Below, piece by piece: positions 7,391-16,652 of a stretch of DNA of 64,000 nucleotides (position 1 is its first letter; every line of letters begins with the position of its first letter). This stretch comes from Pirellulaceae bacterium (GTDB taxonomy: Bacteria; Planctomycetota; Planctomycetia; Pirellulales; Pirellulaceae), in assembly GCA_026004775.1 (NCBI GenBank), contig BPJU01000010.1:1-64000 (forward strand), read 5' to 3'. The position numbers and the translations under genes are program-made. A model generated the notes under the pieces. The model did no database searches and was not told the origin of the DNA. It worked only from the letters and a program-made list of their open reading frames with translations.

Positions 7391-8863
7391 ATGAGCTTTG
7401 AGCTTAGGGAGCGCACTCGTAAGGTCATGTCGATAGCCCGTTGCCCGCGCTGCCGTGATGAAGTTACCGTGCCGTCGCACGTGAGTGCCGAGGCGCTGGT
7501 GGAGTGTCCCTGGTGCCGCGAGACGTATCCGCTGGCCGAGGCGATCGATAGTATGCCGCCGATGCTGAGGGTGGTCGGCCCGTCAGAGCTTCGCACATTG
7601 CCGGTCGATTCGTCGGAACCGGAGCTTCAGTTGCTGCCCGACGAACCGGCTCGGCCCATCGTGGTGACGGACCGGCCGCGAGGCGGCCGCCCGGTCTCAC
7701 GCGCGCAGCGCCCGGTTCGCAGCAAAAGCCTGGTGGCGGAACTGGCTAAAATCGTGGCCGGCGGCATCGTGGGCCTTTCCATAGGCCAGTTGATTCTCTG
7801 GTGGATGCCGGGCAGGTGGGCCGTCAGTCAGCGAGATCCTTTGGGTCTGGCGGCCAAAGTGAGTCGTTGGGCACCGTTCGTTGTGCCCGCCCACTTGCGA
7901 TCCGGATCGGCTCGAGTCCCGGCCGCGGCCTTCCCGGACGGCTCGCAAGCGGCACCCGCGAAAGAACCCCCTGTTCGTTCCCGGCCGCCCACGACGTCTA
8001 AAGGAAGCAACTTGCCGATCGATCGCCGCGGCCCATTATCCAACGAAGATCCATTCTTGCCGCCCGCGTCCCGCCAGGATCCCGGGCAAAGTCGTACTAC
8101 CGATCGGGGTGGCAAAGCGCCGGATCGAGGGCCTTCTGCGGCAACTAAGGCCCAGCGTGACGGCCAAACGCCCGTGCAGGCTGGAGAGCCCGCAGCTCGA
8201 CCGGCCCCAACCATCTCCTCGGATGCCCAGGCTTTTTCAGATCTCCTTCTGGCCGCCCAGTTCGCCGCCCAACAGGCGGAACCGTCCGAACGGCTGCCGG
8301 TCGTTGCTCCTTTTTTACCGCAAATCGCCCAGGAGCTTCCCTGGCTGGTTGTGCGTGGCCAACTGGATGCGGAGTTATTTCGCGAGTTGGATGATTGGCT
8401 GACCGGACTGGCTTCGGATCGCGACGAGTGGGGACAATTGTCCGGCGATCGGGAATCGACACCTCAGACGCAGGGAGAGCGGCCGGGACAGATACTTGTG
8501 GGAAGTGTGCGCGAAATACGACAGTCGGGCGAATGGCAGGAGCTCTATTTGGAAACAAGCCAGTCGTCTGGCGCGGTCATCGTATTGATTCCGCCGCAAT
8601 TGCCGGTCGCTGTCTTGGCAGGCGATGTCGTGGTGGTTCTCGGCGCTGGCTTGTCCGACACTACCGCGCAGCTACCCGAATACCCCGGTCATGTGACCAA
8701 AGCCACGTTGGCCGGCTGGCTCTATACTCTTGGCCGGTCGGAACGCGATGAGCTTGGTGCTCCGCGAACTTCGCACTTTTGGCCCGCACAGCCTCATCTG
8801 GGCGGGAGCAGGCATAGCGCCGCGATCCGTACGCGCCCGATCAGCGCTGGCTGGCGGGGGTAG
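7391..8863 (+). CDS. Membrane-anchored zinc-ribbon protein, unknown function
   Basis: Not assignable to a function. The N-terminus carries a zinc ribbon (RCPRCRDEVTVPSH, then ECPWCRETYPL, residues about 15-51). One transmembrane segment, VAGGIVGLSIGQLILWWMPG, lies near residue 120-140. A long low-complexity Pro/Ser/Arg linker of about 130 residues follows. The C-terminal folded part (about 375-430) has beta-strand spacing like an OB-type domain (GQILVGSVREIRQSGEWQEL, VVVVLGAGL). The protein therefore has an N-terminal ribbon on one side of the membrane and the linker plus domain on the other. The last 30 residues are Arg-rich and overlap the end of the opposing gene by 23 bp. ATG 7430 is an alternative start. 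Confidence 0.65.
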   Translation: MSFELRERTRKVMSIARCPRCRDEVTVPSHVSAEALVECPWCRETYPLAEAIDSMPPMLRVVGPSELRTLPVDSSEPELQLLPDEPARPIVVTDRPRGGRPVSRAQRPVRSKSLVAELAKIVAGGIVGLSIGQLILWWMPGRWAVSQRDPLGLAAKVSRWAPFVVPAHLRSGSARVPAAAFPDGSQAAPAKEPPVRSRPPTTSKGSNLPIDRRGPLSNEDPFLPPASRQDPGQSRTTDRGGKAPDRGPSAATKAQRDGQTPVQAGEPAARPAPTISSDAQAFSDLLLAAQFAAQQAEPSERLPVVAPFLPQIAQELPWLVVRGQLDAELFRELDDWLTGLASDRDEWGQLSGDRESTPQTQGERPGQILVGSVREIRQSGEWQELYLETSQSSGAVIVLIPPQLPVAVLAGDVVVVLGAGLSDTTAQLPEYPGHVTKATLAGWLYTLGRSERDELGAPRTSHFWPAQPHLGGSRHSAAIRTRPISAGWRG

Positions 8864-9845
8864 TTGCCGGTTCCACGGTTGCCGGTACATCCAGTGCCAC
8901 CGGGTGGCTGTCGGCCTGGATATGGATGACCGATTCGACGCGTTGCGTATCGCCGCCGGTCCAGCGTACCGTAATAAAATGTGTGGTCTTGGCCGTCTGA
9001 TCGTCGAATTCGAAGTCGAACCCTTGGTCATCGGCGGTCACTTGACGAATGCGGCAGGGAGTGCGGCTGCGCACGAGGAGCTTCTTGGTGGGGTGGGGAT
9101 CCGCCGCTGAAGCCACCAGCACCAGTGGTGTGGGGCTGGCGGTAAGTGCAGCGCGGATGTAGCCTTCGACGGCCAACGGGATGATCCGGCGGTAGGTGTC
9201 GTTCGTGACCAGTTGGAGCTCTTCGGAAAAATGCCCGGCAGGAGCTTCGGGTTTTAATCGCACGTGCATTCGGTAGCGTACCTGGCCGGCCTGCCGCTGA
9301 TATTCTTCCAGTTCCACTTCCAAGAACCGGCAAGCACTTCGCACGTCCACGATCTGCCAGTCCATCCGCCCTGCATAGGCCACGTCCACCGTCACCTGAG
9401 GCCGCGTCCCGGCATCCACGTCGCCAAATTGCACAATACCCGGCTGGAAAACGACGTCGCTGCGGATGTAGGCGCGAACATGCAATTGGACTTCGGCATA
9501 GAACGGCTTGTCAAAGACGACCGTGATGGTGGCAGATCGTTCGCCCAGAAATGCGTGGGTGTTGAGCACGGCGACAATTTCGCTCTTGTCCCACGTCTTC
9601 AAAGTGCGCTCCGTAACCTGGGGAGTCGTACAGCCACAACTGCTGCGGACCGCAGCGATGTGCACGTCTTCTTTGTAAATATTTTGAAGTTCGAAGCGAT
9701 GAGCGATGTGGGCTCCTCGAGCCACCACACCAAAGTCGTGTTCGGTTTCGCGGAACATCTTCGCCGCCCACGACTGGCCCACCAACGTCTGAGCAACACC
9801 GGCTGATAGCCATCCGCACAGAAGCAGTAATAGTACGTTGCGCAC
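8841..9845 (-). CDS. DUF1573 family exported protein
   Basis: A 334-residue secreted protein with one clear DUF1573 module. The module opens HDFGVVARGAHIAHRFELQN and holds the hallmark SSCGCTTPQ cysteine motif. Two or more further immunoglobulin-like beta repeats follow. DUF1573 proteins are common in Planctomycetota and Bacteroidota and are thought to be extracytoplasmic, but no activity is established. I place the start at the GTG 9845 (or the TTG at 9848), because GGAGG lies 7-10 nt upstream and the hydrophobic signal segment NVLLLLLCGWLSAGVAQ follows at once. An upstream ATG at 9965 would add a basic, unlikely extension. Confidence 0.8.
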   Translation of the reverse strand: MRNVLLLLLCGWLSAGVAQTLVGQSWAAKMFRETEHDFGVVARGAHIAHRFELQNIYKEDVHIAAVRSSCGCTTPQVTERTLKTWDKSEIVAVLNTHAFLGERSATITVVFDKPFYAEVQLHVRAYIRSDVVFQPGIVQFGDVDAGTRPQVTVDVAYAGRMDWQIVDVRSACRFLEVELEEYQRQAGQVRYRMHVRLKPEAPAGHFSEELQLVTNDTYRRIIPLAVEGYIRAALTASPTPLVLVASAADPHPTKKLLVRSRTPCRIRQVTADDQGFDFEFDDQTAKTTHFITVRWTGGDTQRVESVIHIQADSHPVALDVPATVEPATTPASQR

Positions 9846-9848
9846 CAA

Positions 9849-10194
9849 TGACCAACCTCCCAAACTGCCGGCTTTCCGCCGTAGGAAAGCACCGCTGCAA
9901 CGGGCGGAGACGTACGAAATCCTAGAGGATGTTACTATTCCCGTCCGTCTTTTTCTTTTCGTCATTGCTTCCCAGCCGGTGGCACATTTTTTGGGTTGAG
10001 CTACGTACGAAACGTTCCAGGGTGGCGAGAAATTCTACCGGTCCTCCCAGGTTTATCCCCGTTACCGGGACAGCGGAAACTGCTGGCTCAATAACGGTTT
10101 CCTGATTTGCGGCGGTGGTTTAAGATGGCGGTGGGGAGACAGGATGCCGCAAAGGAGGTGCTCAACTATCCGAGCCACGATGGGAGGCGATAGG
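9849..10194. other. Divergent intergenic region between DUF1573 and thioredoxin/NHL genes
   Basis: About 350 bases with promoters presumed for both directions. A TGGCAC followed by TTGG (near 9979-9994) looks partly like a sigma54 site but lacks the GC of the -12 element. No small gene is supported. Confidence 0.4.
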
Positions 10195-12501
10195 ATGAAG
10201 CCAGATAGCAGCGTCCATGGGGCGTCGGTGTTCGGAATCATGGCCTTGGTGGCATGGCTGTTAGTAGCGGGTTGCGCTGGCGATCGCCCGGTACCGGCGC
10301 CCGGGCCGTCCGAGGATGGTGCCGCCGTTACCGGCCCCACCTCGGAAAGCTCGGCCCAGCCGCCGGCCCGTACTGTGGACGGTTCGGCGAACCCATCAGC
10401 ATCGCAACCGTCCCCTGCCCAACCCGCGACGCCCTCCATCCAGAACGGTGATCCCCCTATGACGGGAAGTGAAAAAGCTACGCCATCCGAAGATTCCGGA
10501 AACGAGACCGTGAAGATCGACCATCCGTTTCCGCGCCGCCTGGCGATGCCCGAGTTTCCCCGGTCGGCCGAGTGGCTCAACAGCAAACCGATGAAACTTT
10601 CCGACTTGCGGGGCAAGTTTGTGCTGTTGGATTTTTGGACTTACTGCTGCATTAACTGCATGCATATTTTGCCGGAGCTGAAGAAGCTGGAGCGGCGTTA
10701 TGCGAGCGAACTGGTGGTCATCGGCGTGCATTCGGCCAAGTTCGATAGTGAACAGGAGACCGAGAATATTGCCGCAGCGATTTTGCGGTATGAGATCGAG
10801 CATCCGGTTTTCAACGATCGCGATCATCAATACTGGGATACGCTGGGGGTGCGTAGCTGGCCGACGGTGGTGTTGATCGATCCGGAAGGGCAGGCGATCT
10901 GGGCTCGCGCCGGTGAGATTCAGGCTGAAGAGGTGGAGCAGGTATTGGAGCTGGCCATTCCCTTTTATGAGGCTCAGGGTAAGCTCGACCGGACACCTCT
11001 GCGATTCCCGCTGCTGGCCTACAAGAGTCCGCGAACGCCGTTGCGGTTTCCCGGCAAAGTTCTGGCTGACGAAAAAAGTGATCGGCTTTTCATCGCCGAC
11101 ACCAACCATAATCGCATTGTGGTGGCGACACTCGATGGCCGACTGGTGGACGTCATCGGCAGCGGGCGGCAGGGCGCCGGCGATGGCTCCTTCGAGCAGT
11201 GCTCATTCAATAAACCGCAAGGTATGGCGCTTCATGAAAATATTTTGTATGTGGCGGACACGGAGAATCACTTGATTCGGAAAGTTGATTTGGCGGCTCG
11301 CCAAGTCCAGACCATAGCGGGAACGGGGGTACAGGGGCGGAATCCCTGGCCGGGTTTGGAGTCGTTGTCTCCTTTGAGTCCATTACCGCAGCAATGGATT
11401 GGACCTCCCCGTCAAACAGCGCTCAACAGCCCATGGGATCTGTTGGTGCACGACGGAGCGTTGTATATCGCCATGGCGGGCCCGCATCAGATTTGGAAAA
11501 TGCCGCTCGACGAATCGCAAATCGGCCCTTACGCGGGGAACGGTCGTGAAGACATCGTCGATGGGCCGTTATTGCCGCCGCGGCCCTACGAGTTGGGTTC
11601 AGCATCCTTTGCGCAGCCAAGCGGTTTGAGCACCGACGGAACGTGGCTGTATGTGGCGGACAGCGAAGGTAGCTCGATCCGCGCTGTACCATTCGATCCT
11701 GCTCAACCGGTGCGCACCGTGGTCGGCACGGCGCATCTGCCTTATGCGCGACTTTTCACCTTTGGCGACCGGGATGGGGACCGAGAAGAAGTGCTTCTCC
11801 AACACTGTCTGGCGGTGCTCTATCATGACGGCAAGATATATGTGGCTGACACTTATAACAACAAGATCAAGGAGGTGGATGCCCAGACGGGCCGGACGCG
11901 GACGATCGCCGGGACGGGCAACCCAGGTTCCAGCGACGATCCGGCTGAGTTTTATGAGCCGGGGGGCTTGGCCCTGGCGGCCGGCAAACTTTACGTAGCG
12001 GACACGAATAACCACTTGATTCGCACTATCGACCTGGCAACCGGCAAAGTTTCTACACTGACCATTCAGGGTCTGGAGCCGCCGGCTCAGGCGCCGCCTG
12101 CGCCTCCGGCCGATTCCCCGCCGGTTCGACTAACGGAAACGGTTTGGAAAGTTCAGAACGACCATGCTTTGATGAGGATCGACCTGGCACTGGCTCCGGG
12201 CTGGAAACTGAGCAGCGAAGCGCCGGTGGAGTTGTGGATCGAAGCGGAAGGTTCGAATCCGGGATTCGACGCGTCGGCTCTCGGCTACCGCTCGGTGACT
12301 CCCGCCGCCGAATCTCAAATCGCTCTGGATTTGCCCGTGCGCAGTACAGGCACAGGACAATTGACCGTGACGCTGGTCGTTTACTATTGCCAATCGGAAG
12401 AAGGGTTGTGCCGCGCCGCCAGCGCGGCTTGGCAGATTCCCTACCGGTTGGCCTCCACTGAAGGAGAATCGCCGCTGGTGCTGCGGCACCGCATCGAATA
12501 G
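10195..12501 (+). CDS. Thioredoxin-like / NHL-repeat lipoprotein (NHLRC2-like)
   Basis: A 768-residue protein. The start at 10195 follows GGGAGG and gives a lipoprotein signal peptide with lipobox LVAGC (Cys near residue 24). After a Pro/Ser-rich spacer comes a thioredoxin-fold domain, GKFVLLDFWTYCCINCMHIL, with a CCINC redox motif, then VRSWPTVVLIDPEGQA carrying the cis-Pro. The rest is a beta-propeller of NHL repeats (for example LFIADTNHNRIVVA, LYVADTENHLIRKVD, IYVADTYNNKIKEVD), followed by a C-terminal beta domain. The order matches animal NHLRC2-type proteins. It probably acts as a membrane-tethered extracytoplasmic thiol oxidoreductase. The next two genes are also thioredoxin-related. 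Confidence 0.85.
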   Translation: MKPDSSVHGASVFGIMALVAWLLVAGCAGDRPVPAPGPSEDGAAVTGPTSESSAQPPARTVDGSANPSASQPSPAQPATPSIQNGDPPMTGSEKATPSEDSGNETVKIDHPFPRRLAMPEFPRSAEWLNSKPMKLSDLRGKFVLLDFWTYCCINCMHILPELKKLERRYASELVVIGVHSAKFDSEQETENIAAAILRYEIEHPVFNDRDHQYWDTLGVRSWPTVVLIDPEGQAIWARAGEIQAEEVEQVLELAIPFYEAQGKLDRTPLRFPLLAYKSPRTPLRFPGKVLADEKSDRLFIADTNHNRIVVATLDGRLVDVIGSGRQGAGDGSFEQCSFNKPQGMALHENILYVADTENHLIRKVDLAARQVQTIAGTGVQGRNPWPGLESLSPLSPLPQQWIGPPRQTALNSPWDLLVHDGALYIAMAGPHQIWKMPLDESQIGPYAGNGREDIVDGPLLPPRPYELGSASFAQPSGLSTDGTWLYVADSEGSSIRAVPFDPAQPVRTVVGTAHLPYARLFTFGDRDGDREEVLLQHCLAVLYHDGKIYVADTYNNKIKEVDAQTGRTRTIAGTGNPGSSDDPAEFYEPGGLALAAGKLYVADTNNHLIRTIDLATGKVSTLTIQGLEPPAQAPPAPPADSPPVRLTETVWKVQNDHALMRIDLALAPGWKLSSEAPVELWIEAEGSNPGFDASALGYRSVTPAAESQIALDLPVRSTGTGQLTVTLVVYYCQSEEGLCRAASAAWQIPYRLASTEGESPLVLRHRIE

Positions 12502-12514
12502 TTTGCCGGCACGT

Positions 12515-12979
12515 TTAGGAGCGATCTGTGTTCGTTTTTTGAGGGGCGAAGTGAATCGAGCAGCGATCATTGTCGCATTGGGCATGGCGGCGCCACAGTA
12601 AATAGCGGCGGCGAGCCACGTATCGATAAAGGGCCTGCCAAAGCGGCAGCGTGCCGGGCAGGTGCAGCAGGGGCGCACACCACCATAATCGAGGCAATCG
12701 ACGCGACAGGTATCGCAGTGCAGCAGCACCGCCGTGTCGGCGTCCGTGTCGATCGATGACGTACATCTGTTCCATAAGCTGGTCGTGACTAAGATCCGGA
12801 TATCGCTCGGCTACGCGAGGATCGTGCAGGGAGATGAACGCCAAACGTCCGGCACCGTCCCACCGCGCCAATCGCTGGACTTGGGCGCAGCAAAAACGAC
12901 ACTGGCCGTCATAAATGACCACGTCGGCTTCAGGCAGTTCCTCTACCGATGGCAGCCGTTGTTGGGCGTCGCTGTCCAC
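12515..12979 (-). CDS. DCC family (DUF393) thiol-disulfide oxidoreductase-like protein
   Basis: A 154-residue DUF393 protein. The family name comes from the D-x-x-C-x-x-C motif, seen here as VIYDGQCRFCCAQV. The later conserved DRHGRRHGGAAALRYL and the Trp-rich helical part are also present. It is a predicted cytoplasmic thioredoxin-like protein of unknown substrate. The start is a GTG at 12979, with GGGAGGAA about 9 nt upstream. It ends 13 bp from the convergent thioredoxin/NHL gene and is divergent from the Sec-containing thioredoxin-like gene, so three thiol-redox genes sit together. Confidence 0.85.
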   Translation of the reverse strand: MDSDAQQRLPSVEELPEADVVIYDGQCRFCCAQVQRLARWDGAGRLAFISLHDPRVAERYPDLSHDQLMEQMYVIDRHGRRHGGAAALRYLSRRLPRLWWCAPLLHLPGTLPLWQALYRYVARRRYLLWRRHAQCDNDRCSIHFAPQKTNTDRS

Positions 12980-13241
12980 TGCGTGTTGTTCCTCCCACGG
13001 GCAGACTGGTGGCTTGATCCGGCAACCCTTTCATCCAAAGGCTAGCAGCCGGCCAAGCGCGGCCCGATCGTCTATCCCGTCCGATGCGTCCGGCGGGCAT
13101 GGCTGTCTTGTTAACCGCGACCACCCAAATAATATTAACGGGACCGGCTGGTGCTGGGGCAGGTCGATTTGTCACCGAATTTGCCTGCACGAGCCGAGCA
13201 GCAGGTGTCAGGGTGTAACAAAGTCAGGAGAAGGTTTGCCG

Positions 13242-14480
13242 ATGAAAACGCAGTCCTGGTTCGCCTTCGGCTGGATGGCCTTAGGGATGACGCTGTTCGG
13301 TTGGGTGGCTGGCGTGGTGAAAGCCCAGGAGGATTGGCGGCGCGAGGCTCGCCAATACGGCTGGCTGCTGAACTTGCCGGAGGCGTTCCGCGTGGCGCAA
13401 CAGACCAACCGCCCGCTGATGGTCGTCATTCGCTGCATCCCGTGAACGGCTTGCAGTGAATTCGACGGGCAGGTTGTCCGTCTTCGCCACATCCGTGACA
13501 TTGCCGACCGATTTGTCCGCGTGCGTTTGGGCCAGATCGATGACCTGGACTTGAATTTGTTCCAGTTCGACCTGGACCTTACGTTCTGTGTGTTTTTCCT
13601 GAACGCGGAGGGGCACGTTTACGCGCGCTACGGCTCGCGTGACGAAACCAGTCCCGACGCTCGACAGTCTCTGGAAGGGCTGCGTTACACGATGTTGAGC
13701 GTGTTGGCAACTTGGGAAAACAGCGCGCAACGTGTGGCCCCAAGGCGGTTTCCGGAGCCGCTGGTTATCCGTGCCATGCGAGGTTCGCAAGGTTTTGGAC
13801 GCTGTGTCCACTGCCATGAGGCGCGTGAACTGATCGATGCACAGAGGCGGCAAAATGGCCAGTGGGACGAGCGGACGGTGTATCGTTATCCGCTGCCGGA
13901 TAATTTAGGGGTGAGGATGGAGGTGGATCGGGGCAACGTGGTGGAGAGTGTCGAACCAGGTACTCCGGCGGCTCGGCTCGGATTGCTTCCGGGTGACCGT
14001 ATCGAGGAAGTGGACGGGGTGCCGATCCATTCGCTGGCTGATTTTCAATTCGCCCTGGATGCTGCGCCGGATACGGGCACGATTCCGGTTGAGTGGTGCC
14101 GCGGGCAGGAAAGGCGTCACGGTCAGCTCGAACTGGCTCGGGGTTGGCGGCGAGCTGACATCACTTGGCGCGCGTCGCTGTATAAATTCGTCGCATCACC
14201 TCGGCTTTTCGGGCCGGACCTTGACCCGGAGGAAAAGGCGGCCTTGGGCTTGACCCCGACACGGCTAGCCTTTCGAGCCATGCCGACTCTTTCCGAACAG
14301 GCGCGCTCGGCCGGTATTCAAGAAAATGATATTATTCTGGGATTTGACGATCGAGACTTACATATGAACGTGCGTGAGTTTTGGAGATATGTTCGCAAGA
14401 ACTATTACATCGGTGAGACGGTGATCGTCAATCTCATACGTGATGGACAAACCATGCGGATTCCGATGACGCTGCGATAA
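13242..14480 (+). CDS. Probable selenoprotein: exported thioredoxin-like protein with CxxCH and two PDZ domains
   Basis: Read through an in-frame TGA (13443-13445) this is 412 residues with Sec at position 68. Residues 1-28 form a signal peptide (ALGMTLFGWVAGVVKAQ). A thioredoxin-like segment follows, with the redox stretch VIRC-I-P-U-T-A-C: Cys65, Sec68 and Cys71. After the TGA the same frame is open for 344 codons and continues the family-like DGQVVRLRHIRDIADRFVRV. Further on are a CVHCH motif (188-192), a PDZ domain (about 222-298, ESVEPGTPAARLGLLPGDRI) and a second PDZ-like domain to the end. AGGAG lies 11 nt before the ATG. A SECIS-like hairpin starts 18 nt after the TGA. If Sec is not inserted, the product is only 67 residues. 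Alternatives are a nonsense mutation or a base error at a Cys codon. Confidence 0.75.
13464..13482 (+). promoter_or_regulatory. Candidate bacterial SECIS hairpin
   Basis: Stem GACGGGC (13464-13470) pairs with GTCCGTC (13476-13482) as seven base pairs including one G-U, closing a five-base AGGTT loop. A GAA at 13458-13460 can extend the stem with the TTC at 13483-13485 across a 3-nt bulge. The stem begins 18 nt after the TGA and the loop 25 nt after it. An apical loop containing GGU at such a distance is how SelB-binding elements look in bacterial Sec genes such as E. coli fdhF. Confidence 0.65.
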
Positions 14481-14618
14481 GGGGCTTATTTATCCCAGAT
14501 CGAACACGGTTTCTACTATGCTATCCAGTTTCACATTTGCTGGATGAGAGAGAATTACGATTGGGGTACGAACCTTCATCCGGAGTTTTGCGGCGATTCG
14601 GGCGGCACTCAACGGCGT

Positions 14619-16652
14619 TTAACCGCGTGGATTCCGCGGGAACTTGAAGAACGGCAATCGGACACCTCGTACCGAAAACCGATCGGCTCGGAGCGAGGGG
14701 GGCGGCAGGAAACCGGCAGCACCGGACTTGGTCACTACGTCGTCCTGATCCACCCCGTCGCCGCTCACACCAAAGCCGCCTACCAGAATGGTGCTCTTGT
14801 AAATGGGGGTAGCTCCGGGAAAGAACACCACGCCGTTCTGGTTCTGGAGATTCGTCGGCTGGCGGAAGTTCCGCATAACGTTGAACGAATTGAACATCAG
14901 GGCGCTGGTGGTAGTCGAAGAATATGTGGAGGCGGGCAGTGGTGCCCCGAGGTTCTCAGCTGTCGAGGGATTGATCCCAGGATCGCGCAGCGACGAAAAG
15001 GCTCCGGGTAGCGAACCTTCCACGCCGGACGGATAGCGAGGAGCTGCCAGGAAGCGGAAGGTACGGCTGGTAAGCGCTGCGGCAATGGGAACCGAGACGT
15101 CGGGCACAGAGTCCTTATTGTCATCGACACGGTCGAAGCTGACGATCTGTGCCGGATCGCTGTAGTAGGCCATGTTCCGCGCCTTGGCGACTGCCACATC
15201 GATCGAAAACACTGTGGCATCGGGCATCCGATACAGGCCCAGGACATTGCCGTCCAGGTCGGTCACCGCAAACACCATCCGCGTGCGCGCCCCGGGGCGG
15301 CCGTTGGGCTGGAGTCGAATCTGGGCTCGTACGCGATCGGCTTCGGCAATGGCCTGATTGATAATCCGTTCGACGTCCGCGGCCGTCAGTGAACCAGAGC
15401 CATGGGGCATGACGAGCCACCCGTCAGGAACGGGCAGGCCGCTGAGATAAAAAATGTTGTCCGCCAGCGTGGCCGGATCGCCATCCGGTCCGGGGTCGAC
15501 GAACTGATCGGCACCACTAGCGGGATCCCCAACGCCGACGCTCTGGCCGACTTTCAACAAAGTTTGGACGCCCGACAGCCGGTTCGAACGTGTAGGATGG
15601 GGGCCGAAGATTTCCAAGGTTACGCCCACCAGGTCGATCCGGCCAAACGGCAGGTCGAAGCCGGCTAGCGCGGGCACACCGTTGATCGCGTCCACTTTGG
15701 CTTGGGCAGCACTGCTGCCGCCGGCTGCCGCGAACGCGATCCATTCGGATTCCAGCACGCGCGCCGCGTTGGTTCTTGCATAGGCCGTTTGCCCTACGTT
15801 GGCCACAAACCCCTGTTCAAACGTGGCAAAACCATCAGGTCCGGGAAAGAACACTCCGATCCCTCCGACCAGTCGCCCGTTCTTGTAAAGTGGAATACCT
15901 CCGGGCAGCGTGGCGATACCGCGGGATTGGGCTGTGACGAGGATCTTGGATTGGAAACCGTACGATTCGGGGGCAAAGAGTTCCTTGCCGGCTGGCACGA
16001 ACGCCGGATCGATATTGAACCGCGTGCTGAGAACGATGTCATCAGCCGTTCCTTTGATGCCGTCGGCACCCGGATGGAGAAGACTATCGCGGTTCGTCTG
16101 TTCGATCCCGAATAGATCTACAACCGGTGTGTGCAGTACGTCCGGCGGAAAGTGTCCGCCCAAGCCCACCGGAGCTACAAGCCCCGGTCCGCGAAGAGGG
16201 GAACTCGGATCGGGAATGTTGGGGTTTGATTCGACTTCGCGCTGAGTAATCGTCGACTGGCTGATAAAGCGTATGGTGCGTGAGGTGATGGGCGCGGTGT
16301 CGTTGGCGAAGAAAGCAGCTGTGCGGGCTTTGGCCACCGCTCCGTCGATGGCGAACACAAAGTCGGCTGTGCGTTCATCGACGGCTCCCACCTTGTAGGT
16401 GGCCAGTACGTCGTCTTCGGCCCGTACACCCAAGATCCTTCCGTTGCGATCCACCACGGCGATAATCGCATCTTCACTGGCTGATGCCGCGGCAGCCCGC
16501 TCCAACAACCGGCATACTTCATGCGCGGTAAGCTCGGGGCTAACCACCTGAGCGGGACACGACATCACCAGCCGGGATTCCAGGCTTTCAACGGTCAGCC
16601 TGCGCCGGGTGTTACGTGCCTCCTTGCGTCGCTTGCGAAATAATCCCCACAT
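14619..16652 (-). CDS. Secreted protein with two GlcG/HbpS (DUF336) domains
   Basis: A 677-residue protein with two copies of the heme-binding GlcG/HbpS-like fold. The first runs from LTAHEVCRLLERAAAAS through GRLVGGIGVFF (about 42-290). The second runs from LTAADVERIINQAIAEADRV through ILVGGFGVSGDGVDQDDV to the end. Long inserts containing surface loops split each domain. The N-terminus KRRKEARNTRRRLTVESLESRLVMS is a planctomycete export-type leader (LExRxxLS motif) rather than a classical signal peptide. GGGGAG precedes the ATG by 7 nt. HbpS binds heme or cobalamin-like ligands in actinobacteria; the ligand here is unknown. The gene is divergent from pfk. Confidence 0.75.
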   Translation of the reverse strand: MWGLFRKRRKEARNTRRRLTVESLESRLVMSCPAQVVSPELTAHEVCRLLERAAAASASEDAIIAVVDRNGRILGVRAEDDVLATYKVGAVDERTADFVFAIDGAVAKARTAAFFANDTAPITSRTIRFISQSTITQREVESNPNIPDPSSPLRGPGLVAPVGLGGHFPPDVLHTPVVDLFGIEQTNRDSLLHPGADGIKGTADDIVLSTRFNIDPAFVPAGKELFAPESYGFQSKILVTAQSRGIATLPGGIPLYKNGRLVGGIGVFFPGPDGFATFEQGFVANVGQTAYARTNAARVLESEWIAFAAAGGSSAAQAKVDAINGVPALAGFDLPFGRIDLVGVTLEIFGPHPTRSNRLSGVQTLLKVGQSVGVGDPASGADQFVDPGPDGDPATLADNIFYLSGLPVPDGWLVMPHGSGSLTAADVERIINQAIAEADRVRAQIRLQPNGRPGARTRMVFAVTDLDGNVLGLYRMPDATVFSIDVAVAKARNMAYYSDPAQIVSFDRVDDNKDSVPDVSVPIAAALTSRTFRFLAAPRYPSGVEGSLPGAFSSLRDPGINPSTAENLGAPLPASTYSSTTTSALMFNSFNVMRNFRQPTNLQNQNGVVFFPGATPIYKSTILVGGFGVSGDGVDQDDVVTKSGAAGFLPPPSLRADRFSVRGVRLPFFKFPRNPRG

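Follow-up and report, generated by a model that had tools for sequence, protein, structure and literature searches.

The window analyzed here, a 64,000-nucleotide stretch of contig BPJU01000010.1 from a Pirellulaceae bacterium (GenBank assembly GCA_026004775.1), carries on its forward strand a predicted thioredoxin/PDZ selenoprotein gene of family NF041199 (positions 13242 to 14480). Translated with TGA as selenocysteine (Sec, U), the frame gives 412 residues; it opens at an ATG (13242) preceded by an AGGAG-type site, contains a single in-frame TGA (13443 to 13445, forward strand, codon 68), and closes with TAA (14478 to 14480). The peptide around the recoded position is RCIPUTACSEFDGQVVR, which places Sec68 in a C65-x-x-U68-x-x-C71 motif. 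Upstream lie genes for a DUF1573 protein in its Cys form (8841 to 9965, reverse strand), a thioredoxin-NHL protein (10144 to 12501, forward strand), and a DCC1-like thiol-disulfide oxidoreductase (12515 to 12979, reverse strand). The convergent neighbor (14619 to 16652, reverse strand) encodes a planctomycete extracellular protein with two HbpS-like (heme-degrading) stretches. Inspection by eye found no repeated or operon partner that could point to the substrate across the neighborhoods of six relatives, and since the redox-related neighbors are not repeated there, no pathway was assigned from context.

Residues 1 to about 28 (positions 13242 to 13325) probably form a signal peptide, judged by eye from a hydrophobic core and an end at V-K-A, ahead of Q. 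It is followed on the same strand by a Thioredoxin_7 domain (residues 41 to 122, positions 13362 to 13607; Pfam PF13899, E = 2.7e-11), a C-V-H-C-H motif conserved in relatives (residues 188 to 192, positions 13803 to 13817), and a PDZ tandem (residues about 222 to 411, positions 13905 to 14474) that matches PF17820/PF13180 in two stretches (the better at residues 233 to 278, E = 6.8e-18) and also matches DegP, DegQ, and RseP. Pfam returned Thioredoxin_7 and PDZ only, with no trypsin-like protease domain, and the DegP matches are confined to the PDZ part. A structure model built from ten sequences is good for the PDZ part and of low confidence at both the active site and CxHCH, and no inference on heme was drawn from it; CxHCH, a possible heme c or metal site, sits in a linker between the thioredoxin and PDZ parts with pLDDT under 50.

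The protein scores 401.3 bits on NCBIfam NF041199, above the cut-off of 300 (residues 40 to 411, profile positions 2 to 390 of 390), and C65-I-P-U68 has the form, CxxU or CxxC, expected of the family at the thioredoxin active site. The gene is thus an ordinary further member of a known family, catalogued since 2008. A 2022 review (PMC9312934) lists a "PDZ domain-containing protein" with pfam13899 and CxxU; a 2026 review (PMC13188914) lists NF041199 as CxxU with one Sec and cites the 2008 paper on Global Ocean Sampling (GOS) data (PMC2398784), in which a "putative secreted serine protease MucD" was reported with CxxU, a predicted SECIS, and 2 Sec plus 12 Cys forms. We equate the GOS family with NF041199 by that citation and the common CxxU motif. 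The present protein is like the family of the two reviews in its full-length match above the cut-off, its Thioredoxin_7 plus PDZ architecture, and its CxxU motif, without difference, and it shares CxxU and a predicted SECIS with the GOS family. The name MucD, derived from the PDZ region, fits because of the DegP-like PDZ tandem, although the protein here has no protease domain. That tandem resembles those of DegP/DegQ/MucD and RseP (E about 1e-18 by sequence and 1e-8 by fold), but the trypsin-like or S2P protease domain of those proteins is absent, and a thioredoxin domain stands in its place. The VPGUxxT selenoproteins (NF041382 and NF041383) are likewise thioredoxin-like and contain Sec; their match is weak and N-terminal (E = 0.015 and 0.025), far below their cut-offs, and leaves the PDZ part unmatched. 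The sequence-only reading had described an exported thioredoxin-like protein that carries CxxCH and a pair of PDZ domains, which agrees with the domains above; it had also called the protein probably new and the combination unrecognized among described selenoprotein families, which was wrong, as this exact architecture is that of NF041199.

The longest conventional open reading frame at the locus (mechanical scan) is 13521 to 14480, 319 codons, so that the thioredoxin active site would be missing from a standard gene prediction. Five other stop-split frames of similar form (60 or more open codons ahead of a stop and 300 or more behind it) were found in the window by mechanical scan; the open frame alone was therefore rejected as evidence, and the case rests on homology. 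Relatives align full-length across the TGA at codon 68. Elsewhere TGA acts as an ordinary stop, ending 7 of the 25 long open reading frames in the window, which indicates that the recoding at codon 68 is not genome-wide.

Relatives were found in 50 of 60 related genomes (E ≤ 1e-3), the full-length ones at 30 to 41% identity. Among 122 relatives, a nonrandom sample of best matches and, in part, of rows for which TGA counts were listed, codon 68 reads TGA in 88 and is a Cys codon in 34 (TGC in 22, TGT in 12), with no other codon and never Trp. Together with the translation, this confirms the in-frame TGA that the sequence-only reading had placed as Cys65-Ile-Pro-TGA-Thr-Ala-Cys71, and it bears out the expected alignment of TGA with Cys. 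Position 65 is TGA in 50 relatives and Cys in 72, giving 34 CxxC, 38 CxxU, and 50 UxxU members; C71 is Cys in 93% of relatives. UxxU proteins (codon 65 also TGA; L003, L010, L017, L018, L033, L038, L058, L061, L064, and others) thus make up 50 of the 88 Sec members in the sampled planctomycete relatives, a two-Sec form common in this sample, whereas the 2026 review gives the one-Sec CxxU form. We regard this majority as a modest extension of the known family. The literature searched, which was incomplete, contained no statement on UxxU prevalence.

Shortly downstream of the UGA, a SECIS hairpin (GACGGGC-AGGUU-GUCCGUC, positions 13464 to 13482, forward strand) is present in the minimum free energy fold, with a G in its apical loop, which begins about 26 nt after the UGA. 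It recurs with variants at a fixed distance after the UGA in Sec members, where 86.4% of cells across the seven stem pairs are paired, against a shuffle mean of 78.3% (maximum, 81.4%) and 29 to 47% for register slides. The same columns are 25% paired in Cys members, no better than shuffles, and compensatory pairs at codons 77 and 80 include GGG/GTC, GAA/GTT, GAG/GTT, GCG/GCG, and GTG/GCA. The most stable hairpin within the permitted range had a mean energy of −9.2 kcal/mol in Sec members versus −2.3 kcal/mol in Cys members (P = 9e-15). In this gene taken by itself, 574 of 20,000 synonymous recodings did as well as the native hairpin, which is modest evidence; it is the comparison across members that makes the case. 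The hairpin pattern was matched once in the 6.1 Mb of the genome, in this gene only; an Rfam scan of positions 12000 to 16000 gave chance-level matches only, with no family fitting the hairpin. In UxxU members, the first UGA lies nine bases farther from the same hairpin. The D-[GE]-Q-V-V-R peptide conserved just behind the active site is largely a shadow of the hairpin, because it disappears in Cys members.

In a quick maximum-likelihood tree of 120 members, built with the active-site columns included and so possibly slightly favoring grouping by state, the Cys state needs 3 changes and UxxU at least 12 on well-supported branches, so that Sec at position 68 is stable, while residue 65 often switches between Cys and Sec. 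The gene groups with L002 (CxxU) and L003 (UxxU) with a support of 93. The same genome encodes a second family member (L090; G000:C1:315999-317285) with CxxC and no TGA, in a separate Cys clade; the two copies are thus old paralogues or were acquired separately. The existence of this Cys paralogue, and the fact that in a short-read draft genome one base could turn TGC into TGA, would suit an account in which the TGA is a true stop, in a pseudogene or through a sequencing error in a Cys-type gene. We consider that very improbable: 87 further relatives, spread over many genera and families, also have TGA at this codon; conservation of the hairpin is restricted to members with the TGA; the 412 codons hold no other lesion; and on the tree the gene falls among Sec members, outside the Cys clade.

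The Sec machinery is complete in the assembly (6.14 Mb, 99.9% complete). A tRNA-Sec gene (C5:161603, 72.6 bits) has the anticodon tca (UCA) according to ARAGORN, SelB (C5:196130, 327 bits) adjoins SelA (C5:198114, 571 bits) within C5:196-199 kb, and SelD is at C2:496883 (280 bits). The proposal of a selenoprotein gene had named selA, selB, selD, and tRNA-Sec, TGA aligned with Cys, and a SECIS element as things to look for; each was tested and each was found, the hairpin being conserved in TGA members and absent from Cys members. Matches to formate dehydrogenase alpha and DUF1573 proteins in this genome were also inspected and have no in-frame TGA, so they are not second selenoproteins; a second TGA-bearing PDZ match (C8:17385) is an HtrA gene of the usual kind, with TGA as its stop.

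Across relatives, SelB exceeded the cut-off in 37 of 41 UxxU genomes versus 1 of 19 selected for having Cys forms only (P = 1.4e-10), and among the 60 nearest relatives (hand tally) in 11 of the 12 genomes whose TGA member is full-length versus 6 of the 15 with Cys members only. Five genomes with TGA members (G002, G204, G246, G338, and G189), all draft assemblies, have SelB below the cut-off or absent. One of them, G002 (99% complete), carries a CxxU member (L009, C13:3629-4798) and a tRNA-Sec gene, with no SelA or SelB above the cut-off; this is probably an assembly gap.

Read-through as such is no proof of Sec, and the UGA might be read by a Trp or Cys suppressor or be bypassed by a frameshift. 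We find this scarcely credible, as column 68 is Cys or TGA only and never Trp, the Sec machinery is present, the SECIS stem covaries, and TGA stops ordinary genes, both the HtrA gene on C8 and the long reading frames counted in the window.

It is very likely that the gene encodes a selenoprotein of the known NF041199 family, with the decoding, redox, PDZ, and CxHCH roles proposed as follows. SelB carrying Sec-tRNA(UCA) would bind the hairpin just downstream of the UGA, where machinery and hairpin are both shown, and Sec would thereby be inserted at position 68. The N-terminus suggests that the protein is exported. In the thioredoxin-like domain, the C65-x-x-U68 pair would carry out thiol/selenol-disulfide exchange, as the fold and the interchange of Cys and Sec suggest, and the nearly invariant C71 would supply a third thiol. 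The DegP/RseP-like PDZ tandem, which no protease domain accompanies, probably captures exported client proteins by their ends or loops and presents them to the redox site. Most likely, the protein is a thiol/selenol-disulfide oxidoreductase that works after export and holds its clients with the DegP-like PDZ tandem.

The role of CxHCH is the more speculative part. C188, C191, and H192 are present in 120 of 120 relatives and H190 in 99%; the invariant motif suggests covalent heme c, and CxHCH may be a binding site for heme c or a metal that connects the redox site with periplasmic electron transfer. The main role of the protein might instead be that of a heme c protein: CxHCH would be its working center, the PDZ part a scaffold, and the thioredoxin/Sec pair would maintain the heme cysteines. 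The invariance of the motif would agree with this, as would the cytochrome c assembly proteins encoded in the genome and the pairing of PDZ with CxxCH in MamE and MamP (weak NCBIfam matches that fall on the PDZ region). No cytochrome fold is predicted at CxHCH, however, neither Pfam nor NCBIfam returned a cytochrome match, no distal heme ligand was identified, and the invariant H190 would fit a metal site too; we think this account possible but unlikely. A selenium-heme redox device, in which a PDZ-held exported thioredoxin with a Cys-Sec or Sec-Sec pair exchanges electrons with a covalent heme at CxHCH, is a tentative idea that we consider rather improbable as a whole. Its UxxU component is well supported at the sequence level (the 50 members, with SelB in most UxxU genomes as counted above).

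Our preferred reading is the exported oxidoreductase with a client-holding PDZ tandem. The recoding call is correct at a locus where ordinary gene finders would miss the gene or shorten it to the 319-codon frame. For the family, UxxU forms are common in Planctomycetota, and two UGAs nine bases apart with a single conserved hairpin pose a directly testable question on Sec insertion.
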